From: Pseudolabrys sp.
Lineage (GTDB): Bacteria; Pseudomonadota; Alphaproteobacteria; Rhizobiales; Xanthobacteraceae
Direction: 5' to 3'
Assembly: GCA_017849615.1 (NCBI GenBank)
Contig: JAFIGS010000004.1
Span: forward strand, 1-64,000
Length of the DNA stretch: 64,000 bases
This document shows, piece by piece, positions 21,429-47,798 of the stretch; position 1 is the stretch's first letter, and each line of letters starts with the position of its first letter. The notes beneath the pieces were generated by a model. The model was not told the origin of the DNA. It saw only the letters and a program-made list of their open reading frames with translations, and did not search any database. Made by a program: the position numbers and the translations under genes.

Positions 21429-21434
21429 CGGCCG

Positions 21435-21803: not shown

Positions 21804-21834
21804 GATGCCGCCACTATAGCCGCAACGGCGCGGC

Positions 21835-24428: not shown

Positions 24429-24459
24429 AACGCTGGCGCCTTTGCGGAGCGCCAGCGTT
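24429..24459 (-). terminator. orphan minus-strand terminator, probably the original nrdJ terminator
   Basis: Perfect 11-bp stem AACGCTGGCGC (24429-24439) with GCGCCAGCGTT (24449-24459). Read on minus, it is followed by TTCGTTTTG. No minus-strand gene ends just before it except tniQ, which has its own terminator at 24614-24639. It lies 8 bp outside the transposon target duplication; joining the two flanks of the transposon would put it about 30 nt after the nrdJ stop. Confidence 0.7.
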
Positions 24460-24466
24460 AAGCTTA

Positions 24467-24471
24467 CTGGA
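24467..24471. repeat. 5-bp target site duplication, left copy (CTGGA)
   Basis: CTGGA directly precedes the TGT of the left end and is repeated at 44065-44069 directly after the ACA of the right end. Five-bp duplications are the norm for Tn7-like transposition. Confidence 0.88.
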
Positions 24472-24498
24472 TGTCAGGCGATCCATTGATTTTCCGCA
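24472..24498 (+). repeat. left terminal inverted repeat of the Tn7-like element
   Basis: Starts TGTCAGGCGATCC and contains TTTTCCGCA at offset 19-27 (24490-24498), matching the right end read inward. A second TTTTGCCGC (24505-24513) may be an additional TnsB-type binding site. Confidence 0.88.
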
Positions 24499-24661
24499 TT
24501 CGGCGTTTTGCCGCCCTGATTCCATTCGAGTTTCACTAGACACGTCCTCGACGAACTCCGCAAATGGAACCATATCACACCCGCAGGGTGCCCAGATCGG
24601 CGGATCTGGGCACAAAAAGCCCTCGGCATAGCGAGGGCTGCTGGAGGCACGGATAGGCGGC
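24499..24661. other. left-end non-coding region of the element
   Basis: Between the left terminal repeat and the tniQ stop. It holds further TTnCCGC-like repeats, a perfect hairpin GTGCCCAGATC/GATCTGGGCAC (24588-24598 with 24603-24613) and the tni operon terminator. No gene seen. Confidence 0.6.
24614..24639 (-). terminator. Rho-independent terminator of the tni operon
   Basis: On minus: AGCCCTCG-ctatgc-CGAGGGCT (24639 to 24618) followed by a T run (24614-24617), 22 nt after the tniQ stop. Confidence 0.85.
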
Positions 24662-26500
24662 TTACCTTTCGACCTCCGCCCTCCTGTAGAAGAGGGCTTT
24701 GTACGTAGCCTTTGGCAACTCCGGCGCCGGCTCGATGCCTTTTCGTCTCAGTGCGGCCCGCACCGCACGTGGATGCTGCCCCGCGCTCTCGGCCAGCTCG
24801 GCGAGTTGGACGTACTTTGACCGGAAGGCCACCAGATCTTTTCTGGCGACGAGCCTGACGGCTGCGTTGTTGACCGAATTGATGGCGCGGTAGGTCGGCA
24901 GATTGCCGTTGTCGATGAGCGCACGGACAACGCCGTGGAAAGTGCTCATTTCAACCATCACGGCTTCGAGGGTGAGCCCGTCCGGTGCGGGCTTTCTGAC
25001 GTATTGGCGGACTTCGGCGAGGTCGACCAACAGGGCTGTGTAACCGCGCTCGCCATCAAGCCTGGCGCGTCTTCTGATCTTGCCGTCCAGCACGCCGCGG
25101 ACGATCGCTATCGCGCTGCAGTTCACGCGTTTGGCGGTCTTGGCGATGCCCATCATGCCGGCGGGCGCCTTGGTGACCGGCTCGGCGCCCGCGAGCAGCC
25201 TGTCCAAGAACCCGTCGAGCTCCGCCGGTGCGAACAAGAGCGTCTTCAGCTTCTTGGCGGCGTGGCCGAGCACCGGCTCGATGAAGCCGTGTTCGAGCAA
25301 GAGCTTCGTATGGACACGTCCAGCGTTGGTGTAGGTTTCAGCCTCTTTTAGCGAAATGGCTCCCTTCAGCATCTTCAGGACTGGTCGTGCCTTCCCGGAG
25401 TCGAAAAGGACGCGGTGGTCCCGGAGGCGCCTTTGGTGGGCGTCGATGATGCCGGTGGCTTCCAGGGCCTTCCGGAGGCCCATGGGGTGCATGCCGGTTT
25501 CCAGGGACGCGGTCCGGATGGAGTGGACGCGGCGTTCCTCGATCACCGTGCCGAAAAGCTTGGTCGGCGGGCCGAGCGGCATAGTCTCGATGACGCAGCG
25601 CCGGACAAGATCGCGGATGGGCCGGTAGCTGGATTGCTGACCCACCGCCGTGAGCCATTCGTGAAGTTTGCCGAACCGTGCGCGCGGCCCTTCGTTTGGC
25701 ACGCGCGATTCTTGGTATGAGGCGTTCATCCTGGCGAGGAACGTGCGGATGCCGTGTTCGCCGTCGCGGACGATGTCGAAGCCTTTGCCGCCGCAGACGC
25801 GCCATTGCTCAGGCGTTAGCGCTTTCAGGTTATGTTTTCGGCTGTAGAGCGCTGCGGCGCCGAACATCTCGCAGGTTTTGATGGCGGCGAAAAGGTCGAG
25901 GCTATCGAGTAACGCTGGTCGTCCGGACGTGCCTTGGAGCCGTTCAGCGACGTAGCGTTCGAGTCCTGCGGCAGGCCGCCGAACGGCGTCTGCGACCAGC
26001 CGGGGCAGGTTGGCCAGCGCCGGCGCTACCAGCGCCGCAAAGTCGTACATCGTGGTGACGTCTGCGTGGGCGATTTCGGCGAGCGCGACGTCGTGCATCG
26101 GACACGTATGGACGGCCGCGAGCCGCCATATGATGCGGCCGTATACGGCCTGCTTGGGCGGGCTCCGCGAGGTGGCGATGTCGCCCTGAAGACATTCGGG
26201 ACAGACGAACACCTGAGAGCGCCGGATGTTGAGGCGCAACAGCCTCTCGCCGCGCAGTGTGGTGCCAGCCTCGTCCGTCCGAATGGCATTGCGGGCGAGT
26301 TCTGCGGCCGGGATCCTTGTGAGTTCGGCTAGCGCCTGGAAGGCGTCGGCGCGGCCGGCGACGATGCCGCGAAATGGCACCCCGACCAGGGTGCAGAACT
26401 CCTGGGCGGACTGCTCGAAGTGCGCGACCGCGAGCCGCGAGACGTAACTGGTCGGGCATTCGTCGGGCGCGATCGGCAAGACAGGATCGAGGTAGCTCAA
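24662..26500 (-). CDS. tniQ: TniQ/TnsD-like target-selection protein
   Basis: A 612-aa TniQ-family protein. The N-terminus has the family's DECPTSYVSRLAVAH pattern, and the zinc-binding CPEC ... CPMHDVAL lies at about residues 99-140. A long C-terminal extension contains repeated helical units (KLLLEHGFIEPVLGHAAKKL, LAELAESAGQHPRAVRAALRRKGI) that look like HTH DNA-binding modules. At this length it is TnsD-like, i.e. a site-specific DNA reader, rather than the short TniQ of CRISPR-associated elements; no cas genes are present. Start overlaps the tniB stop by ATGA. Probably recognises the 3' end of nrdJ. Confidence 0.9.
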   Translation of the reverse strand: MSYLDPVLPIAPDECPTSYVSRLAVAHFEQSAQEFCTLVGVPFRGIVAGRADAFQALAELTRIPAAELARNAIRTDEAGTTLRGERLLRLNIRRSQVFVCPECLQGDIATSRSPPKQAVYGRIIWRLAAVHTCPMHDVALAEIAHADVTTMYDFAALVAPALANLPRLVADAVRRPAAGLERYVAERLQGTSGRPALLDSLDLFAAIKTCEMFGAAALYSRKHNLKALTPEQWRVCGGKGFDIVRDGEHGIRTFLARMNASYQESRVPNEGPRARFGKLHEWLTAVGQQSSYRPIRDLVRRCVIETMPLGPPTKLFGTVIEERRVHSIRTASLETGMHPMGLRKALEATGIIDAHQRRLRDHRVLFDSGKARPVLKMLKGAISLKEAETYTNAGRVHTKLLLEHGFIEPVLGHAAKKLKTLLFAPAELDGFLDRLLAGAEPVTKAPAGMMGIAKTAKRVNCSAIAIVRGVLDGKIRRRARLDGERGYTALLVDLAEVRQYVRKPAPDGLTLEAVMVEMSTFHGVVRALIDNGNLPTYRAINSVNNAAVRLVARKDLVAFRSKYVQLAELAESAGQHPRAVRAALRRKGIEPAPELPKATYKALFYRRAEVER

Positions 26501-27606
26501 CGGCGGCCCCCGCGCTTTCCCTTAGACCGTTTTCCTTTGCCGGCTCCGCGGTCAGACCTGCCGCCGTCCTCGCTGTCCTCATCGATTTCTTCGGTCCGCC
26601 GGCCGAGCACTGCGGTGCAGTCGATGTCGGCCCAGTTCGGCATCGTGAAGGGGTTTTCGCTGGCGAGGCATCCGGTATGCACCGCGAAGGCCTCGGCGAA
26701 GTGCTGCCTGGTTAGGCCGTCCGCCCCATACTCCAGGGCCAAGCAGATCGCCTTTTGGGCTAACTCGATCGAGGTGCCGACCTGATAGAGGCCCGCATGG
26801 ATGAGCCTGGGAATGAGTGCATCGAGCACGGTGTTTTGCAGGGGCAGCTCAGCGACGCTGGCAAAATCCGCAATCGCTTCCTCCATTACCTCGATGTCAT
26901 CCGGCAGGACGAGCGATGGAAACTCGAAATGCCGGGTGCGGCGCCTGATTTCGTCGACAGGCTGCGTAAGGGCGACGATTTCCGGCAGGCCGCTGAGGAC
27001 GACGATGATCGGCCATGTAGGCGACACAAGCAGTGTCTTGATCATGTTGCGGATGTCGTCGATTTCCTCCTCGTTCGCATATCTGGTCACATTGTGAATC
27101 TCGTCGAAGTGGACCACAACCTTGCGGCGCCTTTCGATGCGCCGGTAGATCTTCTCCCATACGATGTGGGCGGGCGGATTGCCTTTGATCGGCAGTCCCA
27201 GTTCTCCCAGAGTGATGCGTCCGAACGCTTTTGGCGTACAAAACGACGGCACGCGAACGTAAACGGCGGCGCATCCCGAATAGGGAACCATGTATCCCGG
27301 AAACGCCGGGTGGCGTCCGATGAGCCGCTTGAGCGATAGCGACTTGCCTGCACCGGACTCTCCGACCAGCATGATGGCGCGGCCTTCGCGGCGGTTGCCC
27401 GGACCTTCCGGCACCTTCGGGTCGGCGCGTAGGGTCAGTTCGTTTAGCACTTCCTGGAACTCGGTCGCGAGCTTGTCGTCGCGGTTCAAGCGCAGGAAGC
27501 GCGCCTTGACGCGCTCCATACGGTCGAGCCTTGCCCGCACTTCAGAACCCTGCAGCGCGCGGATGCGTGCGAGCGGATCGTCGTGAATGACGTCGTCGTC
27601 GGACAA
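26497..27606 (-). CDS. tniB: TniB/TnsC-like AAA+ transposition regulator
   Basis: A 369-aa AAA+ ATPase. Walker A GESGAGKS (about residues 80-90), Walker B VVVHFDEIHNV and the sensor-like IIVVLSGLPEI are present. TnsC/TniB assembles on target DNA marked by TniQ and activates the transposase. A Lys/Arg/Gly-rich tail (GKGKRSKGKRGGRR) ends the protein. It starts 2 nt after the tniA stop and overlaps the tniQ start, so all four are one coupled operon. Confidence 0.92.
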   Translation of the reverse strand: MSDDDVIHDDPLARIRALQGSEVRARLDRMERVKARFLRLNRDDKLATEFQEVLNELTLRADPKVPEGPGNRREGRAIMLVGESGAGKSLSLKRLIGRHPAFPGYMVPYSGCAAVYVRVPSFCTPKAFGRITLGELGLPIKGNPPAHIVWEKIYRRIERRRKVVVHFDEIHNVTRYANEEEIDDIRNMIKTLLVSPTWPIIVVLSGLPEIVALTQPVDEIRRRTRHFEFPSLVLPDDIEVMEEAIADFASVAELPLQNTVLDALIPRLIHAGLYQVGTSIELAQKAICLALEYGADGLTRQHFAEAFAVHTGCLASENPFTMPNWADIDCTAVLGRRTEEIDEDSEDGGRSDRGAGKGKRSKGKRGGRR

Positions 27607-27608
27607 GG

Positions 27609-29897
27609 TCAGTCCTCCATCCGGTATTTTCGGGCGGGCGCGCTGCGGTCTGCCGGTTTGGTGGGGGACGGCGAGGCCTCGTCATCGGGTGCGATCTGGG
27701 GTGCAGCCTTCGCCGACGGTTCGTCGCCGCCTACCGGAACGAGGTTGTCGAACAGGCCTGCGCCGGTGCTGGAGATTTGGGGATCCGGTTTGGCCCAAGT
27801 GAAGCTGATGGCGAGATCGCGTTCGGCGCGCTCTATCTCCGCGACCGTGTCAATCCGCGCGCCGATGCCGGAGCGCGCGATCCCGTTTGCCGAGACCTGC
27901 TGGATGGCTCGGAGCGCCTCGCGGACGGCCGGCTCGGCGACCTTAGCTTCGCGTGCGAAGCGGCGGCCGATGTCAGCCAATGTGGCGATCCAGTCGCTTA
28001 GCCGGACGCGGTCGAAACCGCCGTGCACGCACGGCACGGTGAGCCAGTCTTTGCCGACGCGAACCGAGATAGCGCCGATGTCTTCTGCGTCGACGCGGAC
28101 GTCAACCTCGACGCCGCTGCCGACGTGCCGGCGATGAACTTCGAGATGCTCTGAGTTGTAGTTGAGGCCGAGCATGTGGATGCCGCCGGCGCGGATTTTG
28201 TAGGTTTTCTTGATTCCGAAGATTGCGCGCATCTTGTCGCGATCCGGCGGCTCGTTGACGTGGAACGCCTTGGTGAGGCGCCGCCAGGCATTTCGTGGCG
28301 TCTCGCCGCCCAGGCCCTCGTGTGGCATGTTGTGGTAAGCATCGACCACAAAACGGACCAAGACGACTGCGAGCTCGTCGACGTCTAGGTTGGCCATGGC
28401 TTGCGGATTGTAGTCGCCGAGTTCGACAGTGTTTTCGAATGTTCTGCCATGCAGGCGGGAGATCAGTGCTGTGTGGACGGTGCCAAACACGCGCTCGATG
28501 CGGCCGCGGTGGTGGGTGAGATCGATGGGCGGGATTTTGGGCGACCCGCTAAGATCGATGATCACGGACTGCGTCGCATCGGCGATGAAAGATGAGCCAC
28601 TGTCGGATGCAATTTGTTCGGGGGAGCATCGCATGTCCCATAGCGTGACGGCTCCTGCCGCCGAGGCATAAGCGCTCTTGTCGCTGACTATCATGCGGAG
28701 TGTTGCGATCGCATTGGCCGCGGACGGGGTGGGGGCGAGCCTCATGCCCACAATGCAGCGTGTGGCGCAGTCGATGGCGGCGCAGATCCACATGCGGCCC
28801 CGTTCGATCTGTGCCTGCTGTTCTGGGCTGAGGTATTCCCACAGACCTGCGTCAATGAGCAGGACCATGAGGCTGACCTGCCACTCGTCGATTTCGACGC
28901 GCTGTCCCGGCCTCGTTACGTCGAGGCCGGCGGCCACCATGGCGAACTTGCGCTTGGCGGCGAGGACGCCATAACGGCCGGCATAAACGTCGTACCTGTC
29001 GAGCTTATTGATGACGTTGAAGAACGCCTTGTCGCTCGGATGCGGCAACGGCAGCTTGGTCGGTCCCTCTTTGCCTCTTGCAATCGCTGCGGCATTTGCG
29101 GCGACCGCTTGGGCGTTCTCCGGCAGCGTATCGATCTCGTCGCAGAGGTCCTTGTAAAGGTGCTTTTTCTTGGGGCGGTTCAGCGCCGCGTAGCGGACCG
29201 CGTGCTTCCACATCAACAGAGCAATCTTAATGCTGATCCTACGGTCGCGATTTCCGCCCTTATTGTTGCGGAGCACGCACGGATTGAGGCCGGCGTTTTC
29301 GTAGGTGACGATCCAGTCGCGCCAGATGCGGACGCAGGGTGCATTGGTCGGCGGCGGTCCTTTGGTGCCTGCTCGGGCTTTTCTTTTGCCGCGTCCAGGC
29401 TTGCGCGATTTTGCGATATCGAGTTCGGCGCTCTCCGCCTCGATTTCAGGGATCAGTTCTTCCATGACGTCGTCAGAGCGGCTGACCTTGCGGCCGGATG
29501 CACGCACCGCCTGGCCGTTCGCTTCACGCACCAGGAAGCGTGAGACCCATTCAAGCTTCCACATGACCGCGGGCAGTTCGTCGTCAGCGAGGTCGGCGAG
29601 CCGCTCGATGCTGGTGCGCTCGCGCGTGCCGGCCTTTTCGGGGGCGAACCACCCGCGGTCGAACCTGTATCCGGGTTTGTCGCGCTCCTGCTGCAGGCGC
29701 GCTTGGGTGAAAGTCTCAGAAAGCGGCGGACTGACATCGAGACGCGACAAGAGATAACTGCCGCTGTCGTCGCCGCTAGGCTTGGCGTTGCCGAAGGGAA
29801 TGCCGCCTATAATCACGCGGTCGAACGGCCCTATGCGCACGGGCAGTATCTCTGGCGATCGCGGTGGCGGAAGCGGCGGCGCCGCGGCCGGGATCAT
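27609..29897 (-). CDS. tniA: TniA/TnsB-like DDE transposase
   Basis: A 762-aa DDE transposase of the TnsB/MuA/TniA group. The retroviral-integrase-type core has D in RVEIDEWQVSL, D in IASDSGSSF and E in RGRIERVFGTVH, then a Mu-transposase C-terminal beta-barrel-like region. N-terminal about 300 residues include a helical DNA-binding segment (NAPCVRIWRDWIVTYENAG). It should bind the end repeats and join 3' ends to target DNA. Start overlaps the tnsA stop as ATGA. Confidence 0.93.
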   Translation of the reverse strand: MIPAAAPPLPPPRSPEILPVRIGPFDRVIIGGIPFGNAKPSGDDSGSYLLSRLDVSPPLSETFTQARLQQERDKPGYRFDRGWFAPEKAGTRERTSIERLADLADDELPAVMWKLEWVSRFLVREANGQAVRASGRKVSRSDDVMEELIPEIEAESAELDIAKSRKPGRGKRKARAGTKGPPPTNAPCVRIWRDWIVTYENAGLNPCVLRNNKGGNRDRRISIKIALLMWKHAVRYAALNRPKKKHLYKDLCDEIDTLPENAQAVAANAAAIARGKEGPTKLPLPHPSDKAFFNVINKLDRYDVYAGRYGVLAAKRKFAMVAAGLDVTRPGQRVEIDEWQVSLMVLLIDAGLWEYLSPEQQAQIERGRMWICAAIDCATRCIVGMRLAPTPSAANAIATLRMIVSDKSAYASAAGAVTLWDMRCSPEQIASDSGSSFIADATQSVIIDLSGSPKIPPIDLTHHRGRIERVFGTVHTALISRLHGRTFENTVELGDYNPQAMANLDVDELAVVLVRFVVDAYHNMPHEGLGGETPRNAWRRLTKAFHVNEPPDRDKMRAIFGIKKTYKIRAGGIHMLGLNYNSEHLEVHRRHVGSGVEVDVRVDAEDIGAISVRVGKDWLTVPCVHGGFDRVRLSDWIATLADIGRRFAREAKVAEPAVREALRAIQQVSANGIARSGIGARIDTVAEIERAERDLAISFTWAKPDPQISSTGAGLFDNLVPVGGDEPSAKAAPQIAPDDEASPSPTKPADRSAPARKYRMED

Positions 29898-30595
29898 CGC
29901 GCCTTCTCCCTGTCCGGTCGGAAGATCGTCGTGTCATAGCCGATGCGTCCGCCGTCGATATCGAGCTCGCCGTCGCCGATCAGGCGGACGATTGCGCGGA
30001 AGCCCCGTCCTTCGAGGCCGCTATAACGGACGAGTTCTCCGATCCGGACGCTGCCTTTGAGGTCGCCGACCAGCTCGCGCATGCGGTCGTCCGGCGCTCC
30101 GGGCGGGTCGCGACGCACTGCATGGATCAGTCTGCCGTTGTGGACCAGGTCCGGATGCAGGTCTTCCTCGGTCATCAGGACGGCCGCGTCGGCAAAGCTG
30201 CGCGACATTTGTTCGGCGATGCAGCGAATGATCGGCCACCACTTCTTCTTGAACTTGGCCGGTTTGATCGCGACCGCAATCTTGCGGCCATCCTTCATCA
30301 GCAGCAGGAAGTCGAACGTATGCCTGCTGGCCTTACCGTGCTCGTCCACGTAGCAGACCGGAGTTGGCTGCTCGCGGACGTCGGCAACGTCGCGGTGGGT
30401 GCAAAACACGTACGCGGCCTGCTCCTCTAGGCCGCCCTCACAGTAGATGCGCCGAGGTTCGGCACCGCCGACGATGGAAGAGCGCGCCGAGAAGCGAGAC
30501 CGCCGAGACGGAATCCGCGTCGCGACCGAGGCTCCCGGCGGTCTCCAGAACGACGAAGTCGGTACAGGCTGCTCGATCATGACCCGGTACGGCAA
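29894..30595 (-). CDS. tnsA: TnsA-like 5'-strand endonuclease
   Basis: A protein of about 230 aa with the TnsA catalytic layout: E in YCEGGLEEQAAYVF, D in RHTFDFLLLMKDG and K in IAVAIKPAKFKKK, equivalent to the E-D-K triad of the TnsA restriction-like domain. The C-terminal part is winged-helix-like (GSVRIGELVRYSGLEG). TnsA cuts the non-transferred strands, so the element should move by cut-and-paste. Start is uncertain: TTG at 30595 or ATG at 30580. Confidence 0.85.
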   Translation of the reverse strand: MPYRVMIEQPVPTSSFWRPPGASVATRIPSRRSRFSARSSIVGGAEPRRIYCEGGLEEQAAYVFCTHRDVADVREQPTPVCYVDEHGKASRHTFDFLLLMKDGRKIAVAIKPAKFKKKWWPIIRCIAEQMSRSFADAAVLMTEEDLHPDLVHNGRLIHAVRRDPPGAPDDRMRELVGDLKGSVRIGELVRYSGLEGRGFRAIVRLIGDGELDIDGGRIGYDTTIFRPDREKAR

Positions 30596-30910
30596 TGCGA
30601 TCCCATTCGCCGGACAGGTCCGGCGTGCAACAGCTCAACGATGTGGGAGGTGGCGCGCCCAGTCCGAGACTTGGCGCTTGCGCCATGCCGCGGTGTGAGG
30701 GAGAATCGAAGCGCTAGTGCTGTGGCTCCGCTCCCCTCCGTGGGGACGACCATTACGGCGAGGCGGTCCGTTCCTGCGGGCCGCCTTCGCTTTTGTAGGC
30801 TACGTGCTCATTGTGGCCTCCAATTCCCGATTGCGCGCGCAAGATGACTCGGGATCCTGCAAGTCCCGAGTCGAAAAATGCAGAATTTTGAGTCACTTAG
30901 CTGGCGCCGC
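30596..30910. other. 315-bp internal intergenic region upstream of tnsA
   Basis: No gene. It carries a perfect 9-bp hairpin GACTCGGGA/TCCCGAGTC (30846-30854 with 30864-30872), not followed by a T run on either strand. The tni operon promoter is expected here. No TGT-type element end was found, consistent with this being interior to the transposon. Confidence 0.5.
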
Positions 30911-31860
30911 TTAAATCCTTGGAGAATCGATCGAATCGCCAGTGGTTAGCTCCGGCAAAACGTCCTCCTGCTCGGGCTCGAAGGCGAGATTCATGCGCGA
31001 CAGGAGGTCTGAAGCGCATCTTGTCCGTCCGGACCACACGTCGTCCGGCTCCGATGACAGAACGTGTGAGGCGATCGCGTAGGCCCTGGGATCGAGCGTC
31101 CGAAGTTCGAGGGGTTCGGCATCCCGCGCGACCGTGAGACCGACGTGCGGCTTGGCACCGATCGCTTCCTGGAGCACTTGAGCCTGCCCCTGGTCTTCAA
31201 GGCGGACAGCAGCTGGTCCGGGTGCCAAACCTCAACGGGCGGCCAGCCGGACGTCCGGAAGATCGTCCGGTATCGCTCCTTGGTGATGGCTGCATGGTCA
31301 AGTGTCACGGCCTTGTACACCCCTGCGATGTCCTGGTGGTTCAGATCAGACCGCAGCGCCAACAAGATGAGCCGGTCCTCGTCCGCCAGATCGCCCGGCA
31401 CCAGCGCGCCAGCGGCGAATTCGTAGGCGCGCAAGGCGGTGCCGCCGAACACCGTCACGTCCTCTGCGAGCGGACGCGCCCACAGCGCGCGCAGAATGCG
31501 CGCCATCTTCGTCGGCACGTGCGCCAAGCGGTAGGCCTTGGCAACGCGTCCAGCCGTGAGAATGCCGTCCCGCATCGACGTCACCGTCTGCTTGGCCGCC
31601 TCACGGCGCTTCATGAAATCGTCGTAGGTGCGCTCGGTCTCCGGCGCGCGCCGGCCGAGCGAGGTGAATTTCTTCTTGCCGGTCTCGGGGTCCTGACGGT
31701 AGCGGGCCAGGTAGGCGGCCCCGTTGACCACCTTCCATTGCATGCCGCCGTCGAGCGACGACCGTTGTCGGAGGGCCGGCCCGTAGGACGCCCAAGCTTT
31801 CTCCAGGTCCTGGATGTGGCGGCGCTCGGTCGGGCCGATATCAATCAATTCATCATACAC
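30911..31860 (-). pseudogene. GSU2403-type nucleotidyltransferase-fold protein, frameshifted
   Basis: The first frame, from a GTG at 31860 (VYDELIDIGPTERRH), carries MQWKVVNGAAYLARYRQ, LGRRAPETERTYDDFMKR and the nucleotidyltransferase signature VFGGTALRAYEFAAGALV. After PDQLLSALK (near 31190) the coherent sequence moves to another frame: DQGQAQVLQEAIGAKPHVG, then LRTLDPRAYAIASHVL to the stop at 30911. A single-base deletion explains it. The family is linked to AbiEii-like nucleotidyltransferases. It may be a true pseudogene or a sequencing error. An in-frame Met at 31989 is too far upstream. Confidence 0.7.
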
Positions 31861-31862
31861 GA

Positions 31863-31901
31863 TTTCTACCCCGGTCGCTACTTGTGATTTTGGGGTAGAA
31901 A
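31863..31901. promoter_or_regulatory. 10-bp inverted repeat (operator candidate) before the nucleotidyltransferase gene
   Basis: TTTCTACCCC (31863-31872) and GGGGTAGAAA (31892-31901) are perfect inverted copies 19 bp apart. They sit just upstream of the GTG start at 31860 and cover its likely ribosome-binding GGGG. A repressor site or RNA hairpin is plausible. Confidence 0.45.
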
Positions 31902-32205
31902 ACAGACCTGAGCGAGAGGAGTCCACAAATATCGTATCGGCGTGGCTGAAAGCGATTAGGAGGCGCTTCCCACCTCGTACGGGGAGCATTTTGGAAGAAG
32001 GTCGGCTCCGCGCGGACCAGCCAGCTTCAATGGCCCAGGTGCGGGCCCGATCTGTGCATGGTGGCGTCTGCGCCCTTGGAAATTGCTAATCAGCGAGAGA
32101 TGGTAAAGGCGCGTGAGTGCAATCGCCGGTCGGCGACTCTATTCACATGTCAGTGACGTGCAACTCTAGGCTGAATTACGAGCCGGGTGGTCGGGGGCGG
32201 TAAGC

Positions 32206-36620: not shown

Positions 36621-39600
36621 CGCGGTTTTCGAAGAGCTCGGCTGGGACGAGCAACAAGAACTCAAAGAGGCCGTCTGCGATGCGGTATTGGAGCGCACGC
36701 GCCGTGTCGTATCCGGCGAGGGTCCGCATGGAGCCGCCATTTTGGGCGAAAAGCCTTCTAAGGTGCTTTCGAGCGGCTTCATTCTGCCGAAACTCAATGA
36801 AGACGGCGATGACGAATCGAGCGACATCCGCATTGCGTCCCATGGTCTGGACATCAGACTTCGATCCATCGACAGCGGTACAATTACGATCAAGCCATCA
36901 TTCTGGGTCTATGTGCGTGCCCTTCCGACGTCGGCGGAGCTTTTTGCCAGAAACGGCAGGTTGATTCCAAAGGCGGACTTCAACCAGGACACTCGCTCGA
37001 AGATCAATGCCGAGATACGGCGGCGTTCGGAATCAGAAATTCCAAAAGGCACCAAGTCCAGAGAGAGGGCCCAGCTGCGAGCGGCAATTTCCCGAGAGGT
37101 CTACCGTTCGATCGGTGTCATCGTTCCGGATGACACAACTCTGGCTGCTGGCGATGATCGGGCAGCTGAAACCATCGAGGACGGCGTCCCCCCGCCACCC
37201 GTGATAAACGGAGGCAGGTTGCGGATTCCCGACCGGCTTTCACGGCAGTACGAAATCCCTGTTAAGTGGCTCCGCGTCGATGTGGACGCGCCGGTCCTGA
37301 AGCTGTCACTTCCCTGTCGTCCGTCGGAATGGGAGGCCGCAAGCGCCGATTATCGAAGGCAGCTCGAAGCCAGCATCCGGGGCGCTTGTCAGACTTGGCT
37401 TGCTTCGGATGTGGGAAAAGCTAATGCATGGCGTAAGAAGCGCCCGCCCTCCGAAGCGTTCTGGGGCGCTGCAAAGTGGGATGAGTTTCTCGCGAACTTG
37501 CGTGCGACGGCACCGGTCGCCAGCGATTTGATCCCTGAATTTAAAGTCCAAATTCTGGTCCAAGCACTACCCGATCCTCTGGAGGAAGGCACATTTTCCG
37601 TAAGGCTGGCGTTGGAAAATTTGCAGGAGAGGGACGAGGACAAAGAGCACGGCCTATTCGGAGTTTCGCTGGTCGCCAACATTCCGACTGCCTCGCTGCG
37701 GCCGATGCGGCTTGAGCGCGTCCGACGCAGCTATCACCTCTCCGGTTTCATGACCATGCCGGCGATCGGAGTGAACGGTGGCGTTACGGATCTCAGCATT
37801 AAGGATCACGTGCGCGTCCTCAAAACGAGTTGGATGCCAAAGTACGTGCTGCCACGCATTCAAGCGGTCAGCATTCCATCTGTTCCGACGACCTATAGTG
37901 CTTTAGCTTCGAGCTCCACGGACGTCGCCGATCTATTGCGCCTGTCCAAGAGCATGGAGGAGTGGCTTGAGCGGATCCGCACAGATATCCGTCTGTCGGA
38001 AGCTGGGGAGGAAGGAAGCGACTCCGATGAGGCAGCTCAGCGTGCTCGGTTCGATGACGATCTCGCTGCGTGGGGGCGGGAACGCATCCGGATCGAGAAA
38101 GGGATCCGTCTCCTTCTGAAGTCGCGCAACGAGTGGAAGCGCGATCCGTCGTCGAACAAGGCGATTCCATACCGCGCGTGGCTTCTATTGAATACAGCAT
38201 TCGCCGACGCGACTCCGCCCAGAAAAGAAAACAGCAAGCCCGGCTGGCGGCTGTTTCAAATGGCTTTCGTGCTTTCACACCTGCCAACGCTTGCATCGCG
38301 TCTCCCTGAATATGCGGATGAATTCGACGCGGAGTACGATGAAGATTCCGTAAGCCTTCTCTACATGTCGACCGGTGGCGGCAAGACGGAAGCCTTCTTC
38401 GGTACGCTTGTTTATGCGCTTTTCATCGATCGGCTGCGGGGCAAACATCGTGGCGTCACGGCAATGATGCACTATCCGCTGCGGCTATTGACCGTTCAGC
38501 AGGCGCAACGGCTCGCCAAACTGCTCGCCCAGGCCGAACTCGTCCGGCGCCGCGAGCGCATTGATGGGGCTCCATTTGAAATCGGCTTCTGGGTTGGCAG
38601 TTCCAACACACCGAACCGCACCGAAAGGAAGCCCGGCGAAGTCGAAGATGCTTTGAGGTGCATTCCAACCTGGAATCACAAGCGTGCTGCAGACGAAACG
38701 CTTCTCGAAGCGAGCGAACAGCCGGAAGACAGGAACTATGTGATAGCGAAGGAGTCCTGGAACAAGCTCCCGGAGTGTCCGTTTTGCCGGTCTAGGCTGG
38801 GGACGGGATTGCGGCTATTTCCCGAGCGCCGCAATCAGCTAGGCATCGTATGTTTCAACCAAGCTTGCGCTTGGGTCGCCGCACATCCTCGCGGCGAAGG
38901 TATCGCACCAGAGCCGCTTCCGTTCTTTGTCGTCGATACCGACATCTACCGTAGAGCACCTTCGGTCCTGCTTGGAACCATCGATAAGCTGGCCCTGCTC
39001 GGTCAAAGCATCGAGACGGTCGATCGGATCGCCGGAATGTTCGGTATGGCGCGAGCCATTGAAGGGGGTCCGAACGGGCTCCTTCAGATGCTCAATGGCG
39101 CGCTAGCGGATTCGCCGGAGCAGCAACAACTCGCAAGAGTCGCTCCTTCATATCAGGACGGGACCGAAGTCTTTCACGATCCGTTTCCTAGCCTGATCGT
39201 TCAAGACGAGATGCATCTGCTGGAAGAGAGTCTCGGTACATTCGGAGGAATTTTCGAAACGGGTCTCTTCGCCTGGCTGAGCCGGTTAGCTCCGCTGCTG
39301 GGTCAACGCGCCTGTCGAATTCCCGGGGCTCCGGACCGTCCGCGTCTGCCTCACGTCATTGGCGCCACCGCCACGGCCGCCGACGTGGCGCGTCATGTCC
39401 GCTCACTCTATCAACGACGGGTGACCCAATTCCCGCATCCCGGGCCGTCCCTCCATGAAGGCTTTTACACACGAGTCGCACGTTTCGAAGATGGAGGAGA
39501 GGCCGCAGCCGCCCGCGATGGGAATGTGGGAAGCGCGCGGCAGCGCGAGAGCGCCGCCCCTTGGGGACGCGTGTACGCAAGCCTCATGACGAACGGTCGT

Positions 39601-40836
39601 CTACATACCGTGACCACGTTGTCCATTTTAGCGGCGCATGCCGCGACGATTACGCGATGGCAACGCGACCTCGCATCTGGCGACCCCATACGTCTTCAGC
39701 GCGTCTGCGGGGAACTGGAGCAGAATACGTCGGATGCCATATGGGCAGAGCGACGGCGTGACGCGCTTCGGCGGGCAACGGCCGAGAGCAAATACGAACT
39801 GTTGGCGAACCTGATCGATCTGCATCGGATTGAACTTTCTTACGTGACGAACAAGAAGGGCGGGGATCAAATTCTGTCCGCGCTTATGGGCGAAGTGCGC
39901 GAAGCGCACGCGGCGATGGGTCCGGAATATGAGCTCGACGAATATCGGATGGAATTGATCTCAGGCGGCGTGGACATCCGCGGGATCCAGGCCGTAGTGA
40001 AGGCAGCAGAACGTCAATTCGATCCCATGCGGGACCAGATATCCCAATCTCTGCGAGGCATCGTTGCGACTTCGGCCATTTCCCACGGTGTAGACGTCGA
40101 GATATTCAACGCGATGGCGTTCGCGGGCATGCCTCCCGACATCGCGGAATACATACAAGCCTCTTCGCGCGTCGGCCGAACACACGTCGGCTTTTCCTTG
40201 CTGATTCCTACGCCGCAGACACGCCGCGACCGCTTTGTGGTCGAGGTTCACGAATCGTTTCATCGGCTGCTGGAGAGAATGATCGCGCCTCCTGCCGCTG
40301 AGCGTTGGGCCGACCGCGCAATTCAGCGAACCATACCTTCGCTGGTTCAGATGTGGCTTGGAGGCGTGCAGCACCAACAACAATTCTGCCGCGCGGCCCG
40401 CAAGGGCCAGATGACGTTGCCCACAACCGTCGAACAAGCGGAGCGGATATTCCGCGACAAGGCTCTGTTTGACGATTGCGTCCGGTTCGTCGTTGAGGCT
40501 GTCGGCGTTTCCGCAGGCACGGGAGCCCCGGCGAATCCCTCATATTATAGCGGACTCGTCCGCGCATACGCCGACCAAGTCCGCTCGGTGATTCTAAGCA
40601 ATGAATTCGTTGGTCGCCTGGCCGATTTTTGGAGAAACTCATATTCAAATTTCCAGCAGCCAATGACGAGCTTGCGCGACGTCGACGTGGCGGGCCGCAT
40701 ACGCGGATCAACGCGTGTTCAGAAAAACCAGACCATCTCTGCGGAGTGCGTCGCCACGGCAATGAGCATCATAAGAAATCGCGGCATATCGCTGTCGCGC
40801 CGATCTCCCAATAGTGAGTTGGATCAAGAGAGTTAA
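36613..40836 (+). CDS. drmA: DISARM helicase DrmA
   Basis: A 1407-aa superfamily 2 helicase. Walker A STGGGKTEAFFG lies near residue 586, a DEMH motif II in VQDEMHLLEE near 866, and motif VI QASSRVGRT near 1181-1189. A long N-terminal region precedes the motor. Four Cys in CPFCRSR ... CFNQAC suggest a zinc site. DrmA is the DISARM core helicase and pairs with DrmB to block unmodified phage DNA. The ATG at 36613 has GGAGG upstream. Confidence 0.9.
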   Translation: MRDAVFEELGWDEQQELKEAVCDAVLERTRRVVSGEGPHGAAILGEKPSKVLSSGFILPKLNEDGDDESSDIRIASHGLDIRLRSIDSGTITIKPSFWVYVRALPTSAELFARNGRLIPKADFNQDTRSKINAEIRRRSESEIPKGTKSRERAQLRAAISREVYRSIGVIVPDDTTLAAGDDRAAETIEDGVPPPPVINGGRLRIPDRLSRQYEIPVKWLRVDVDAPVLKLSLPCRPSEWEAASADYRRQLEASIRGACQTWLASDVGKANAWRKKRPPSEAFWGAAKWDEFLANLRATAPVASDLIPEFKVQILVQALPDPLEEGTFSVRLALENLQERDEDKEHGLFGVSLVANIPTASLRPMRLERVRRSYHLSGFMTMPAIGVNGGVTDLSIKDHVRVLKTSWMPKYVLPRIQAVSIPSVPTTYSALASSSTDVADLLRLSKSMEEWLERIRTDIRLSEAGEEGSDSDEAAQRARFDDDLAAWGRERIRIEKGIRLLLKSRNEWKRDPSSNKAIPYRAWLLLNTAFADATPPRKENSKPGWRLFQMAFVLSHLPTLASRLPEYADEFDAEYDEDSVSLLYMSTGGGKTEAFFGTLVYALFIDRLRGKHRGVTAMMHYPLRLLTVQQAQRLAKLLAQAELVRRRERIDGAPFEIGFWVGSSNTPNRTERKPGEVEDALRCIPTWNHKRAADETLLEASEQPEDRNYVIAKESWNKLPECPFCRSRLGTGLRLFPERRNQLGIVCFNQACAWVAAHPRGEGIAPEPLPFFVVDTDIYRRAPSVLLGTIDKLALLGQSIETVDRIAGMFGMARAIEGGPNGLLQMLNGALADSPEQQQLARVAPSYQDGTEVFHDPFPSLIVQDEMHLLEESLGTFGGIFETGLFAWLSRLAPLLGQRACRIPGAPDRPRLPHVIGATATAADVARHVRSLYQRRVTQFPHPGPSLHEGFYTRVARFEDGGEAAAARDGNVGSARQRESAAPWGRVYASLMTNGRLHTVTTLSILAAHAATITRWQRDLASGDPIRLQRVCGELEQNTSDAIWAERRRDALRRATAESKYELLANLIDLHRIELSYVTNKKGGDQILSALMGEVREAHAAMGPEYELDEYRMELISGGVDIRGIQAVVKAAERQFDPMRDQISQSLRGIVATSAISHGVDVEIFNAMAFAGMPPDIAEYIQASSRVGRTHVGFSLLIPTPQTRRDRFVVEVHESFHRLLERMIAPPAAERWADRAIQRTIPSLVQMWLGGVQHQQQFCRAARKGQMTLPTTVEQAERIFRDKALFDDCVRFVVEAVGVSAGTGAPANPSYYSGLVRAYADQVRSVILSNEFVGRLADFWRNSYSNFQQPMTSLRDVDVAGRIRGSTRVQKNQTISAECVATAMSIIRNRGISLSRRSPNSELDQES

Positions 40837-40837
40837 G

Positions 40838-43072
40838 ATGAGCGACTCCAAAGCCCCCACAATGCAACGTTCACGGAGCCAGTTGGCTACCGCCTATGCG
40901 CCTCATTCGCTGTTTATGTTCGAAGGTGGTTTGGGCGCCTGCATGGCTTTGCCGGATAACGGAAACCGAAAAGCGGACGAACTCAGCCAGACGACCGAAA
41001 GACTTATCGGCGAGCAAATTCAGGAGTATTTCGAGGCCTGGGCCGAACGCGCGCGCAGGGGGAACAATCTTAAACATCCAGTGCCGCTGAGGTTGGCGAT
41101 CGACAGCCGTGCTATCGCCGACAACGACACGGTTCGCGTCCGTCTTGGAGACCTTGCATTTCAAGTCCCCAACACAGTTGGCTACATACCTTTTCCTCTG
41201 GCATTCCGCTGCACCCGCTGCGGATTATATCGCGGCTCGAAGTCGGTCGAGCGCTTTTCCGTGGACGCGCCGAAGTTCAGGAATGCCTGCCCAACCGGAA
41301 GCGACGCGTGCGCAAATGACTGGGAACAGATCGATGTGGTCCTCGCGCACTGGTCGGGCGAAGTCGAACCAATTACTCCAGGCTACCGTCATTGGAACGA
41401 CGAAGCGCAAGAGATTCGAGACATCGAAAAGTGCACGTCTTGTGAGTCTGACAGGTTCTTCCTGGAGCGCCCGCCCGGAGCCCTAGCCCGATGGCACTTC
41501 CGGTGCGTCGTATGCAACACCGTCCGCGACATTCTTCAGCGCGACCGCGAAACACTGCAGACGCTTGGACCGCTTCTCGGTCAGAATCTCGCATTGCCAG
41601 CCGAAATAAACATGGAGCCGGTGTCATGCCGAGCATCGGCCGTCTACTACTCGCATGGAGATCGGCTGCTGGATTTCAAAGCTGACCAGTACGTGTCATT
41701 GCTGGCGCAGACAAAGAGGGGGGATCTGGAGGCCTTCCTCTCGTCTGAGTTCGGCTATCCCGTTGCGCAGATATCCAACGACCAAAAAGAAGCTCTGCTG
41801 AAGGCCGCCGGCCGGGCAAGCGAATGGGACACATACATTCAAAGTCGTCGGGCAATCGAGACGTTGGAGCAGACTGGAGCTGACGCGTCTGTGCTCGACC
41901 CTCTTCGACAACTTTTGCGAAACACAGAAGATAAGTGGAACGCGACGATTTTCGCGGGTACGCAGAAGGCGAGCGCCGGCATTGCGACTGCCGTGGGTCT
42001 TCGACAGCAATTCGTTCGGAGGTTCGACCCAATCCGGATGGCGGTCGAGCACAAGACCCTGGCAGAGGAAAAGCTCCATAGCGGCCAAATGAGTGACGGT
42101 CGCGCGGTTTCGGTGGATGTCAGCATCTTGGACGAGTTCTTGATACCGGATGGCGTCACCGACGAAGCGCTGGAGCGCTTGAGAACGCAGGTCCGGCGCC
42201 GACTGACGCTCTTGGGAGTCGCGGAAATGCGCCTCGTCCGGGACGTGCGCGTCTGCGAGTACACATTCGGCTACAGTCGAACCTCCGCTCAACCGGTGAT
42301 CCGACGGGAGAAATCCAGGGATGCTGAATTGCCCGTTCGGTTGCGTTTGTTCGACCGCGTGCGAGTCGGGGATGTGTCCCAAACACCTGTTCTCTGCCTC
42401 GTTCAATCGAACGAAGGTTTGTACGTGAAACTGGACGAAGCGACTGTGCTGAATTGGTTATCAGAGAATGCCGTCCAGCCCAGGGCTTCGGACCCTGGGG
42501 TTAGATTAGGTGGGCTCCTCATCGAGGAGTTCGCGGAACTTGAGGGCAATGATGACACGAAATTCTCGCGGTTTCTCGACGAGTACAGAAGAGAGCGGGC
42601 TCAGGACAGGAGAGCGTACCCATTCGTATACACGCTGCTGCATACGATGGCGCACCACTTGGTGAACGTCTCTGCGTCAATGTCAGGATTAGACGCCGGA
42701 TCGTTTGGTGAGCACATCTTCGTGCCCAATCTGTCGTTTCTTGTCTACAGACGCGGAATGACAATGGATTTGGGCAATCTTTCTTCGATGTGGCGGGACC
42801 GAGGGGATCCGACTTATGGAAACGAAGTCCTCGACCGCATGGTGAATCCAGCGAGCCTAAGGTGCGGATCGGAATCGGTGTGCAATCACCGAGGCGGCGC
42901 CTGTCCGGACTGCATCTTGCTGCCAGAAAGCACCTGCATCACGCGAAACGAGCTTTTGTCCAGGTCGGTTCTGATTGGGCGCGGGTCCCCGCGGTGGGAC
43001 AAATCAGTCCGCAATCTAAAAGGGTTCTACGAGGTCGCGGGCCAACGAGCCGCAGCGGTGAGGGGTACGTGA
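40838..43072 (+). CDS. drmB: DISARM DUF1998 protein DrmB
   Basis: A 744-aa protein with Cys pairs FRCTRCGLY (about residue 125), CTSC ... CVVC (about 198-224) and a C-terminal DUF1998 module HTMAHHLVN ... NLSFLVYRRG ... CNHRGGACPDCI, all typical of DrmB, which complexes with DrmA. N-terminal SQLATAYAPHSLFMFEGGLG matches the usual start. Starts one base after drmA and overlaps drmC as GTGA. Confidence 0.9.
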   Translation: MSDSKAPTMQRSRSQLATAYAPHSLFMFEGGLGACMALPDNGNRKADELSQTTERLIGEQIQEYFEAWAERARRGNNLKHPVPLRLAIDSRAIADNDTVRVRLGDLAFQVPNTVGYIPFPLAFRCTRCGLYRGSKSVERFSVDAPKFRNACPTGSDACANDWEQIDVVLAHWSGEVEPITPGYRHWNDEAQEIRDIEKCTSCESDRFFLERPPGALARWHFRCVVCNTVRDILQRDRETLQTLGPLLGQNLALPAEINMEPVSCRASAVYYSHGDRLLDFKADQYVSLLAQTKRGDLEAFLSSEFGYPVAQISNDQKEALLKAAGRASEWDTYIQSRRAIETLEQTGADASVLDPLRQLLRNTEDKWNATIFAGTQKASAGIATAVGLRQQFVRRFDPIRMAVEHKTLAEEKLHSGQMSDGRAVSVDVSILDEFLIPDGVTDEALERLRTQVRRRLTLLGVAEMRLVRDVRVCEYTFGYSRTSAQPVIRREKSRDAELPVRLRLFDRVRVGDVSQTPVLCLVQSNEGLYVKLDEATVLNWLSENAVQPRASDPGVRLGGLLIEEFAELEGNDDTKFSRFLDEYRRERAQDRRAYPFVYTLLHTMAHHLVNVSASMSGLDAGSFGEHIFVPNLSFLVYRRGMTMDLGNLSSMWRDRGDPTYGNEVLDRMVNPASLRCGSESVCNHRGGACPDCILLPESTCITRNELLSRSVLIGRGSPRWDKSVRNLKGFYEVAGQRAAAVRGT

Positions 43073-43905
43073 GCAACGCGGCCCCGATCGGCGATGCGCT
43101 TGCGCACTCTATCGTCCAGTCATTGGGCTCGGATTGCGCGGCCGCTGCCCACTTTGCGCACGCGGTGGCAACCAGAGAACTGGGGGCCTTCCTCGACAGA
43201 GATAGCCTCCGAATCGGTCCGGCTGCTGTCGTCAGCCGGATTGCAGAGGATTTTGGTAGGCGCGGTTGGATAACCCCCACAAACACTGGTTGGATGATTG
43301 GGCCGAATCTCGCGCCTTCTTTGCTTCCGGCTTTTCTTCAAGGCGCAGCTGCAATGGGCAACCTGTTCTCTGATCATGGGCGGGCAGCTGCGGCGATTAC
43401 GCTGCCGCCGTCACCAAGCTGGATAGAACGCGCGCTGCCCACGACGGGTTTCGCGTATGCCTCGTTGCTTTCGACTGACGATGCCTTGCGGCGAGTTGCG
43501 GCGGAAGCAGTCAACACGCTGACTTTAATGACCCCTTTCTTGAATGAAGAAGGACTAGAGTACGTGATTTCACTAGCGGCGCTCAGTCGGGCAGCTGTAC
43601 GGAAGCTAATCGTCCGCGAACTTGGAGGAGCTCGCGATCTGATCACGTCGAGGGCGAACCGAGTACGAAGCGCAGGTTTGGAGGTTCTTAATTACCATCT
43701 TCCGACAGGTGACGGGTTCGAAACATTCCATGCCAAGGTTGCACTAGCTGACAGCGACTTGGCTTACGTCGGAAGCGCCAATTTGACGGTCTTTGCACGG
43801 CGCTCCATGGATCTTGGATTCGTCGTAGATGGCAAAGCGGCGCGAGTCGTCGCATCCGTGATAAAGGCGGTCGAGCGCGTCTCGGTGGCGGTTCCCTTGA
43901 GCTAG
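43069..43905 (+). CDS. drmC: DISARM phospholipase D-like protein DrmC
   Basis: A 278-aa protein with one clear PLD HKD-type motif, FHAKVALADSDLAYVGSANLT, near residue 225. The N-terminal half holds helical DNA-binding-like sequence. One HKD per chain means the active enzyme would be a dimer. DrmC is the third DISARM core gene. GTG start at 43069, with GAGGGG upstream, overlaps the drmB stop. Last gene of the operon. Confidence 0.88.
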   Translation: MSNAAPIGDALAHSIVQSLGSDCAAAAHFAHAVATRELGAFLDRDSLRIGPAAVVSRIAEDFGRRGWITPTNTGWMIGPNLAPSLLPAFLQGAAAMGNLFSDHGRAAAAITLPPSPSWIERALPTTGFAYASLLSTDDALRRVAAEAVNTLTLMTPFLNEEGLEYVISLAALSRAAVRKLIVRELGGARDLITSRANRVRSAGLEVLNYHLPTGDGFETFHAKVALADSDLAYVGSANLTVFARRSMDLGFVVDGKAARVVASVIKAVERVSVAVPLS

Positions 43906-43932
43906 AGAACTCCGCGTGGCCCCAACCTACGA

Positions 43933-43966
43933 GAACGGACCCGCATCTTGCGATGCGGGTCCGTTC
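43933..43966 (+). terminator. strong hairpin terminator after drmC
   Basis: Perfect 15-bp stem GAACGGACCCGCATC/GATGCGGGTCCGTTC around TTGC, followed on plus by ATTTGTTG. It ends the DISARM operon inside the transposon's right end. It does not look like a minus-strand terminator. Confidence 0.8.
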
Positions 43967-44037
43967 ATTTGTTGAGCTCGGTCCGTTCCCTACTGCGGCA
44001 ATGCTTTGCTTCCATTTACGGAAGCACATTGGGTCAG

Positions 44038-44064
44038 TGCGGAAAAACGATGAGTCCTCTCACA
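44038..44064 (-). repeat. right terminal inverted repeat of the Tn7-like element
   Basis: Read inward on minus it begins TGTGAGAGGACTC and has TTTTCCGCA at offset 19-27 (44038-44046). It matches the left end at 20 of 27 positions without gaps. Further inward, CTTCCGTAA and TTGCCGCAG on minus (about 44016 and 43996) resemble extra TnsB sites. Confidence 0.88.
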
Positions 44065-44069
44065 CTGGA
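44065..44069. repeat. 5-bp target site duplication, right copy (CTGGA)
   Basis: Identical to 24467-24471 and directly adjacent to the right terminus. Confidence 0.88.
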
Positions 44070-44081
44070 GCGTACGAAGCC

Positions 44082-47000: not shown

Positions 47001-47798
47001 GTCGCCGATCTTCAAGAATGACATCAGGCCCGACGACTTGCCGCCGCCGGACAGGCGCTCACCTTCGCCGCGCAGGTTTGAGAAGTTGGTGCCGGTGCCG
47101 GAACCGTATTTGAACAGGCGCGCCTCGCGCACCCACAGGTCCATGATGCCGCCTTCGTTCACCAGGTCGTCGCTGATGCTCTGGATGAAGCAGGCGTGCG
47201 GCTGGGGGTGCTCGTAGGACGACTTCGACTTGGTCAGCTTGCCGGTCTGGTAATCGACGTAATAGTGGCCCTGGCCGGGGCCGTCGATGCCGTAGGCCCA
47301 GTGCAGGCCGGTGTTGAACCACTGCGGCGAGTTCGGCGCGCACATCTGGTTGGCGAGCATGAAGCGCAGTTCGTCATAGAAAGCCTGGGCGTCGTCTTCA
47401 TTGTCGAAGTAGCCGCCTTTCCAGCCCCAGTAGGTCCAGGTGCCGGCCAGACGATCGAACACCTGCTTCGACGAAGTCTCGCCGATATAGCGTTCCTTCT
47501 CGGGCAAAGCTTCGAGCGCGGCCTCGTCGGCCACGGAGCGCCACAGGAAGGAGGGGACGGCGTTTTCTTCGACCTTCTTGAGGCGGGCGGGCACGCCGGC
47601 CTTGCGGAAATACTTCTGGGCGAGAACGTCGGAGGCGACCTGCGACCAGAATTCCGGCACCTCCACATTGTCCAGCTTGAAGACAATGGAGCCGTCGGGG
47701 TTTTTGATCTCGGACGTGGTCAGCCGGAATTGGATGCCCGCGTAGGCCGAATTCTGACCATTGCCTGCATCCTTGGTGTAGCGCCGTTCGATCCGCAT
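44082..47798 (-). CDS. nrdJ: vitamin B12-dependent (class II) ribonucleoside-diphosphate reductase
   Basis: A 1238-aa class II reductase that uses adenosylcobalamin to make deoxynucleotides, independent of oxygen. Clear family segments are [52 protein letters not shown] and [10 protein letters not shown], then a C-terminal zinc ribbon [22 protein letters not shown]. The ATG at 47798 is used, with GGGGAC upstream; a TTG at 47813 is unlikely. Its natural terminator appears displaced by the transposon. Confidence 0.96.

Follow-up and report, generated by a model that had tools for sequence, protein, structure and literature searches.

A Tn7-like transposon with DISARM-like cargo behind nrdJ in Pseudolabrys and its probable homing to class II ribonucleotide reductase genes

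A stretch of 64,000 nucleotides (nt) from the alphaproteobacterium Pseudolabrys sp. (Xanthobacteraceae; assembly GCA_017849615.1, contig JAFIGS010000004.1, positions 1 to 64,000, hereafter the window) contains a Tn7-like element of 19,593 bp (24472-44064), inserted directly behind nrdJ, the gene of the vitamin B12-dependent (class II) ribonucleotide reductase. The element is very probably a cut-and-paste transposon of the Tn7 type, the single TniQ protein of which would guide it to class II ribonucleotide reductase genes in the manner of TnsD. The evidence comprises the exact position of the element behind the intact reductase gene, its set of transposition proteins, and the recurrence of paired element ends at reductase genes among relatives. 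Relatives are cited below by species or by our working handles (G and L numbers).

The window lies on a contig of 188,621 bases in a 4.4-Mb genome of 35 contigs. The left terminal inverted repeat (24472..24498, plus strand) carries the TnsB-like box TTTTCCGCA at 24490-24498, and the right one (44038..44064, minus strand) carries the box TTTTTCCGCA; the two 27-bp termini begin with TGT, are identical at 20 of 27 positions and have TTTTCCGCA at equal offset. They are flanked by the two copies of the target-site duplication CTGGA (24467..24471 and 44065..44069, no strand assigned). A preliminary description of the window had already delimited a Tn7-like element with these termini and this duplication, and its coordinates were confirmed base for base. 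When the window was scanned for TGT...ACA pairs flanked by a perfect 5-bp duplication (left end within 20000-25000, right end within 31000-50000), 21 were returned, of which the CTGGA pair scored 21/30 and the runner-up 15/30. A match to the empty site, which the same description had proposed to look for, was obtained in G012, one of 42 other genomes of the genus, in which the joined flanks align over the junction (query 4-250 of 299, 81%); some match to the joined flanks was obtained in 36 of the 42, and among the other matches listed the alignment ends before or about at the junction. It had also suggested searching for further copies of the 27-bp ends; with up to 3 mismatches allowed, each end occurs in the whole 4.4-Mb genome only once. 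The cargo has a G+C content of 0.57-0.59, no higher than that of the flanks (0.60-0.67), and the tns genes have 0.60-0.64.

The boundaries had thus been placed correctly in the preliminary description, which overlooked their most telling feature, namely that the site lies 17 nt behind nrdJ (44082..47813, minus strand; NCBIfam NF005736, 2330 bits against a cut-off of 1737). Outward from nrdJ, the stop codon is followed by 12 nt, the duplication and the right end, which starts 17 nt past the stop, and the coding sequence of nrdJ is left intact. Past the left end there is a strong hairpin (24429..24459, minus strand; z -3.2) with a T-rich tail on the strand of nrdJ. In G012, where no relative of the window TnsB was found, a hairpin with the same outer stem is located 28 nt from the T of the nrdJ stop codon; the corresponding distance in the empty site of the window is 27. 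The hairpin of the window is therefore the probable terminator of nrdJ, now separated from its gene, and the element appears to lie between the two, because the G012 hairpin matches and the joined flanks align over the junction. Another terminator-like hairpin, just inside the right end (43933..43966, plus strand; z -5.4), was considered as a new nrdJ terminator and dropped, since its T-rich tail is on the strand of the cargo.

The transposition genes are all encoded on the minus strand, in the order tnsA (endonuclease subunit, 29894..30595), tnsB/tniA (DDE transposase, 27609..29897), tnsC/tniB (AAA+ ATPase with Pfam AAA_22 and TniB matches, 26497..27606) and tniQ (TnsD-like target selector of 612 aa, Pfam TniQ 3.6e-18, 24662..26500). 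The frames are open and either overlap or are 2 bp apart, in agreement with the single coupled operon described earlier. Residues E57, D95 and K111 of TnsA, D337, D432 and E468 of TnsB and the P-loop lysine K88 of TnsC, which we take to be catalytic, are conserved in at least 95% of the rows present; with these catalytic-type positions kept among relatives and the genes open, the earlier suggestion that the element could still move is plausible. The zinc motif CCCH of TniQ (Cys100, Cys103, Cys133, His136) is invariant in 22 of 22 aligned rows and in at least 95% of 32, and the TniQ profile matches the solved TnsD structure PDB 8v32 (E 8.4e-05). TniQ is taken as the homing factor because of its length, its CCCH motif, this profile match and the precedent of Tn7. 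The element thus combines TnsA and a DDE TnsB, an AAA+ TnsC/TniB, a TniQ-domain selector, a 5-bp duplication and short inverted termini, the features by which Tn7-like elements were recognized here, with a fixed chromosomal home site, as indicated by 20 of 48 genomes in which element ends could be paired next to a class II reductase gene. No Cas effector was found among the ten open reading frames (ORFs) of the element scanned against Pfam, NCBIfam and PADLOC (E 0.001; the TniQ and TnsB models of PADLOC carry CRISPR-associated labels), and a CRISPR array search was not made.

These 20 genomes, the window's own among them, were identified by a pairing test that requires an exact 5-bp duplication, scores the best 30-bp terminal match, places the right end at most 60 nt from the reductase stop codon and counts 19/30 or more as a pass; only genomes with both a reductase 3' end and DNA past tniQ were eligible. 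Fifteen pairs are at nrdJ and five at a second class II reductase gene, and the 20 duplications are all mutually different. In the first set, analyzed with free termini, 10 of 31 genomes including our own scored at least 19 (G665, 27; G635, 24; G502, 23; Nitrobacter, 22; own, 21; G033, 21; G388, 21; G1125, 21; G153, 20; G598, 19), against 0/930 at this level and 8/930 at 18 for control combinations of the reductase of one genome with the tniQ end of another. When TG...CA termini were required and G1125 was set aside, 8/30 genomes reached at least 18 versus 0/870 controls; this rule misses G1125, G033 and G598, all of which are recovered with free termini at a higher background. The second set was obtained by a profile scan of genome contigs; with TG...CA termini as a condition and as much as 10 kb of DNA beyond tniQ included, the test gave 10/17 at 19 or more and 0/272 controls at 18 or more. 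Five of its pairs are at the second reductase (G778, G775, G782, G783 and G780, scores 22-27) and five at nrdJ (Methylobacterium NEAU K, Bosea, Methylorubrum thiocyanatum, a Rhodospirillaceae metagenome-assembled genome (MAG) and G770, scores 19-21). The comparison of ends with those of other tniQ elements, also proposed in the preliminary description, has thereby recovered paired ends and duplications in relatives. Four further genomes with ends at a plausible position were not counted (G407, 18; G728, 16; G653, 12; G612, 11), and no end pair was obtained in the stretches examined of genomes with tniQ pieces or a split tniQ near nrdJ (G610, G628, G655, G666, G702, G604) or of G427. In the test with free termini, the DNA included beyond tniQ amounted to 24 kb in G535 and 5 kb in G666, neither of which paired, and to at most 2.5 kb in controls.

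With our own and fragments counted, a relative of TniQ was detected in 26 genomes out of 397 in the order and in 39 out of 391 in the family. The close lineage is rare, because a profile search at E 1e-40 across the class returned 2 of 385 genomes, our own and G1125 only; a single-sequence scan of viral contigs and of the genome-contig collection gave no relative. The closest TniQ (71% identical) is that of Nitrobacter sp. 62-13 (G595), where the right end lies 18 nt after nrdJ, the left end is 203 nt past tniQ on another contig, and the duplication GCGAG is present at both ends despite the two contigs. G033, of the same genus as the window (TniQ 40%), has a 29.3-kb element at nrdJ, 21 nt past the stop, with the duplication GCGGT. 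Altogether, in 20 relatives a whole or partial tniQ shares contig and strand with nrdJ and lies downstream of it, at distances of about 3 to 123 kb tabulated by eye (G033, G153, G427, G635, G535, G612, G653, G598, G728, G666, G628, G610, G655, G702, G604 with a weak match, Bosea sp. WAO, Bradyrhizobium viridifuturi, Methylobacterium NEAU K, the Rhodospirillaceae MAG and Methylorubrum thiocyanatum); G406, a weak fragment 162 kb downstream, was left out of this table, and the linkage count excludes six family genomes with weak matches (G512, G588, G623, G642, G643 and G662).

A related arrangement was found in Rhodobacteraceae with TniQs of 27-29% identity, where tniQ lies downstream of another class II reductase gene on the same strand in 10 of 14 genomes and in L171; it was not seen in L163, L176, L179 and L183. 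The distance from tniQ to this second reductase is 11-27 kb, and 0.6 kb in L171, which has lost most of its tns genes. Two second reductases were scanned and pass TIGR02504 (NrdJ_Z) while failing NF005736, whereas the nrdJ product of the window passes both. In all 11 linked Rhodobacteraceae loci, a shared right-end-like DNA starts 19-27 nt past the stop codon (determined partly by eye) with TGTGGCG... or TGTGAAGTGAC..., preceded by DNA that differs between genomes, and in 5 of the 11 it pairs with a left end. The TniQs linked to the second reductase form one branch of a quick tree (SH-aLRT 95), which includes one further row, G774.

Both reductase families have 3' codons for the motif Cys-Met-x-Cys-x-x-Cys-Gly, one codon out of register, and in either family about 59-71 nt separate the insertion from the start of the first cysteine codon (80 in G635). 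From a comparison of 27 reductase 3' ends, the codons for Cys-Met-Lys-Cys-Asp-Thr-Cys-Gly near the C-terminus of nrdJ (44104..44126, minus strand) are proposed as the recognition sequence in the window. The termini, duplications, recurrent position and orientation and near-constant distance to the cysteine codons are read directly from the DNA, whereas contact of TniQ with the target and present-day mobility are inferred. In the proposed mechanism, TniQ would bind the part of the reductase gene that codes for the conserved cysteine tail at the C-terminus, and TnsC would bridge it to TnsA and TnsB. Insertion would follow 14-35 nt past the stop codon, with one and the same end facing the reductase and the tns operon on the opposite side, and the reductase gene would stay whole, merely parted from its probable terminator.

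Several observations weigh against homing to reductase genes. At the threshold used, 28 of the 48 genomes are unpaired; contig breaks, cargo extending past the available stretch or decay of tniQ may explain some of them. Since the 20 paired genomes are related and were chosen from matches, they are not 20 independent draws, the sets being non-random, incomplete and partly made up of close kin. G1125, which was located after the hypothesis had been formed, fits it in that the right end is 20 nt past the stop, with the duplication CCTCC and a score of 21/30 with free termini; the TG...CA version of the test failed there, however, and the ends were then spotted by eye. In G535, nrdJ, the tns genes and the whole DISARM-like module described below occur together, yet no convincing end pair was found. 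Ten relatives have tniQ on the same contig as nrdJ, not downstream and near (G613, G734, G471, G605, G676, G244, G361, G391, G417 and G252); most of these are fragments or distantly related (22-27%), which holds for neither G613 (30%) nor G734 (35%). By eye, no right-end-like repeats were seen behind nrdJ in G651, G613, G391, G174 and G734, and the ends of G734 sit behind another gene, dcd, and not behind a reductase gene. The nrdJ-linked TniQs do not form one clade: their distribution requires 8 changes on the tree, a number equally low in 112 of 500 shuffles, and 5 changes on a larger TniQ tree. Finally, two plasmid relatives lack an annotated reductase within 20 kb, and two plasmids with both genes carry tniQ and reductase far apart.

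Other explanations of the site were weighed against this evidence. The transposition complex might be drawn to a terminator hairpin or another structure behind nrdJ and not to the coding sequence, as the duplication directly precedes a terminator-like hairpin and as Tn7 itself sits in the glmS terminator, according to the title of a cited reference; this is quite improbable, given that the distance to the stop and to the cysteine codons is kept while the intergenic DNA varies between genomes, and that the two reductase families used both contain the codons of the cysteine tail. The 3' end of nrdJ could also be a general hot spot for islands, to which the element was delivered by another integrating element without homing itself. 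Several nrdJ-linked islands span 38-125 kb by coordinates, some have no end pair, and in G427 (L115) a sequence like the 3' end of nrdJ is repeated about 140 nt past the nrdJ stop, perhaps left behind by a different integrating element at this position. Delivery of this kind is nevertheless highly improbable, because in 20 of 48 genomes it is the Tn7-like element itself whose edges bear the duplications and inverted repeats, and because the ends are alike in Rhodobacteraceae where the flanks differ. As to an ordinary Tn7-like transposon without target preference that reached nrdJ by coincidence, some relatives are indeed not at a reductase gene; the recurrent site, with none of the 930 and 272 control combinations passing, leaves this idea an almost negligible probability, unless the selection of genomes created the recurrence.

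A broader proposition can also be formulated, for which the chances appear about even: this alphaproteobacterial TniQ lineage would home to genes of deoxynucleotide supply by way of the class II reductase cysteine codons, would have switched between nrdJ and the second reductase (in an unrooted direction), and in at least one member would have switched to dcd. This member is G734, in which the right end lies 13 nt past the stop codon of dcd (dCTP deaminase; NF005734 above the cut-off), with the duplication TCACC and a score of 23/30, and the left end is 236 nt past tniQ. The dcd case is weaker, as it is single and as the locus-wide scan by which it was detected also gave another pair, of 26/30. 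A 26/30 inverted repeat in G734 (L108, near 442 and 16407) lies outside the element ends and is probably a dispersed repeat.

The ends contain further candidate boxes, located by eye: in the left end (24557..24585, plus strand) TCCGCAAATGG followed by a weak CCCGCA, both clearer in G665 and Nitrobacter G595, and in the right end (43994..44024, minus strand) a second and a third box, CTTCCGTA and ATTGCCGCA, about 22 bp apart. In 11 elements scanned by script, 2-3 boxes per end were found in some (G665, G635, G612) and one in others. Largely by eye, boxes at the target-side end tend to lie at about 17, 39 and 61, and the far end has one terminal box and two at about 83 and 105; this spacing is best seen in G665, G612 and Nitrobacter, the script alone having found fewer boxes in most. 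All of these are possible, putative TnsB sites. That one end always faces the reductase in the paired cases follows from the design of the test and from the location of tniQ at the far side.

The gene order was described earlier as unlike that of Tn7, with tniQ beside the left end and tnsA more than 13 kb from the right end. Both positions were borne out and the difference from Tn7 stands, but the same order is common in the element's own lineage. The distance between tniQ and the left end is 0.2-0.4 kb in 11 of the 20 end-paired elements (own, Nitrobacter, G665, G502, G153, G598, G1125, Bosea, NEAU K, M. thiocyanatum and G770) and 1.1-7.0 kb in the other nine (G635, G388, G033, the Rhodospirillaceae MAG and the five Rhodobacteraceae). 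Because this placement recurs among the paired elements, the outward-pointing tns operon is a trait of the lineage.

Eleven islands delimited by coordinates, 3 of which were not counted in the pairing test, range from 15.3 to about 125 kb, and the largest could be nested. In eight genomes (G033, G635, G153, G702, Nitrobacter, G502, B. viridifuturi and Bosea; L080, L101, L113, L125, L131, L147, L186 and L187, also L106), the short sequence GAACnAAYCRTGAAT comes after a GC-rich hairpin, no more than a few hundred nt behind nrdJ; it was not found in the window and is possibly a promoter, leader or cargo signal. In a ninth genome, G728, the stretch occurs beyond the left end, perhaps as part of a second element in tandem. 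In a Rhizobiales MAG (L156, 4873-6558), two consecutive tnsA-like stretches precede tnsB, and on the Methylobacterium radiotolerans plasmid pNYY1_1 (L237), a related tnsA-tnsB-tnsC-tniQ set without an annotated ribonucleotide reductase within 20 kb adjoins CBASS defence genes.

The cargo, judged by sequence, is a variant similar to DISARM and not DISARM itself. Its module, on the plus strand, encodes an N6-adenine methyltransferase (32206..33900; its top PADLOC match is to a type II methyltransferase model), a 907-aa protein (33897..36620), a DrmA-like helicase (36607..40836; PADLOC E 1.7e-82, NCBIfam 323 bits against a cut-off of 950), a DrmB-like protein (40814..43072; PADLOC 4e-18, NCBIfam 47 bits against 240) and a DrmC-like phospholipase-D protein (42790..43905; PADLOC 1.6e-10, NCBIfam 34 bits against 133). 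The DISARM-like cargo named in the preliminary description was thus recovered as a distant match only, with DrmA, DrmB and DrmC below the NCBIfam cut-offs and no match of the module proteins to the DrmD or DrmE models of PADLOC. DrmA matches the solved DrmA structure 7s9v (3.5e-42); its frame is open from 36382, and similarity to two of three relatives begins at codons 75-83. The open frame of drmC overlaps the end of drmB, and its start is uncertain. The 907-aa protein is a conserved module member, with relatives of 47-51% in three other modules and no match above chance in Pfam, NCBIfam, PADLOC (even at E 10) or PDB sequences. All five module genes (48-63%) are found together in G535 (L102, L228), beside the tns genes behind nrdJ, directly downstream of tniQ and hence on the opposite side of the tns operon compared with the window, on account of which the module seems to move as a unit. 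Five module genes (33-67%), with the methyltransferase last, are present on plasmid pRL10 of Rhizobium johnstonii 3841, and four on a plasmid of R. phaseoli N161, where the methyltransferase match is weak and on the other strand. The module likely acts against phage. Between it and the tns operon lies an ORF of 332 aa (30991..31989, minus strand), for which Pfam, NCBIfam and PADLOC gave no family match. Only its residues 47-210 have a relative, a gene near tnsA of G734 (46%), so that the ORF may represent a decayed gene. A link of this ORF to a gene beside the Rhizobium johnstonii module was rejected.

Tn7 duplicates 5 bp of its target, and the element shares with Tn7 and its TnsD this duplication, TnsA, TnsB, TnsC and a long TniQ-family protein with a CCCH zinc motif. 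It differs from Tn7 in its target, a class II ribonucleotide reductase gene instead of glmS, in having tnsA away from the right end, in the outward-pointing tns operon far from the target with the cargo between the target gene and the tns genes, and in that none of its ten scanned ORFs was named TnsE. According to the parts of the literature consulted, TnsD of Tn7 binds the last 36 bp of glmS, which include active-site codons, and directs insertion about 20 bp past the stop codon (PMC2918618); insertion at such a distance from a conserved gene, with active-site codons as the proposed target, is common to both elements, as is a controlled orientation (PMC11406308). Known home sites include parE and tRNA genes, reached through TniQ/TnsD, comM for Tn6022 and res sites for Tn5053 (PMC11406308, PMC10293859), and the present element resembles these in having a TniQ-family protein with a home site of its own. 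No ribonucleotide reductase site is named in the text seen of these two sources: "nrd" and "ribonucleotide" do not occur in the main text of PMC10293859, nor "ribonucle" in that of PMC11406308. Tn7-like elements with defence systems as cargo have been described (PMC8649781), in a main text, supplements apart, that as far as consulted mentions neither DISARM nor nrd. With DISARM, the cargo shares DrmA-, DrmB- and phospholipase-D-type proteins and a methyltransferase in one module (PMC9142583, in part); it differs in scores below the NCBIfam cut-offs, in the lack of a DrmD or DrmE match and in the conserved 907-aa protein without a known family. No description of nrdJ or another ribonucleotide reductase gene as a Tn7-like or TniQ site was found in the literature searched, supplements excluded, which points to a homing site that is new in this sense.

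Ribonucleotide reductase genes would thus join the short list of home sites of Tn7-type elements. The related TniQ sets with different targets (nrdJ, the second reductase and dcd) make target change in TniQ/TnsD proteins directly testable, and the elements could serve as tools to insert large cargo into alphaproteobacterial genomes at a defined position, with the gene left intact. Some plasmids carry class II reductases of their own, and so do some phages, so that the same TniQ could move the element onto mobile DNA; no sign of such transfer was seen in the plasmids examined. The transposon may also illustrate a way in which a DISARM-like module can spread.

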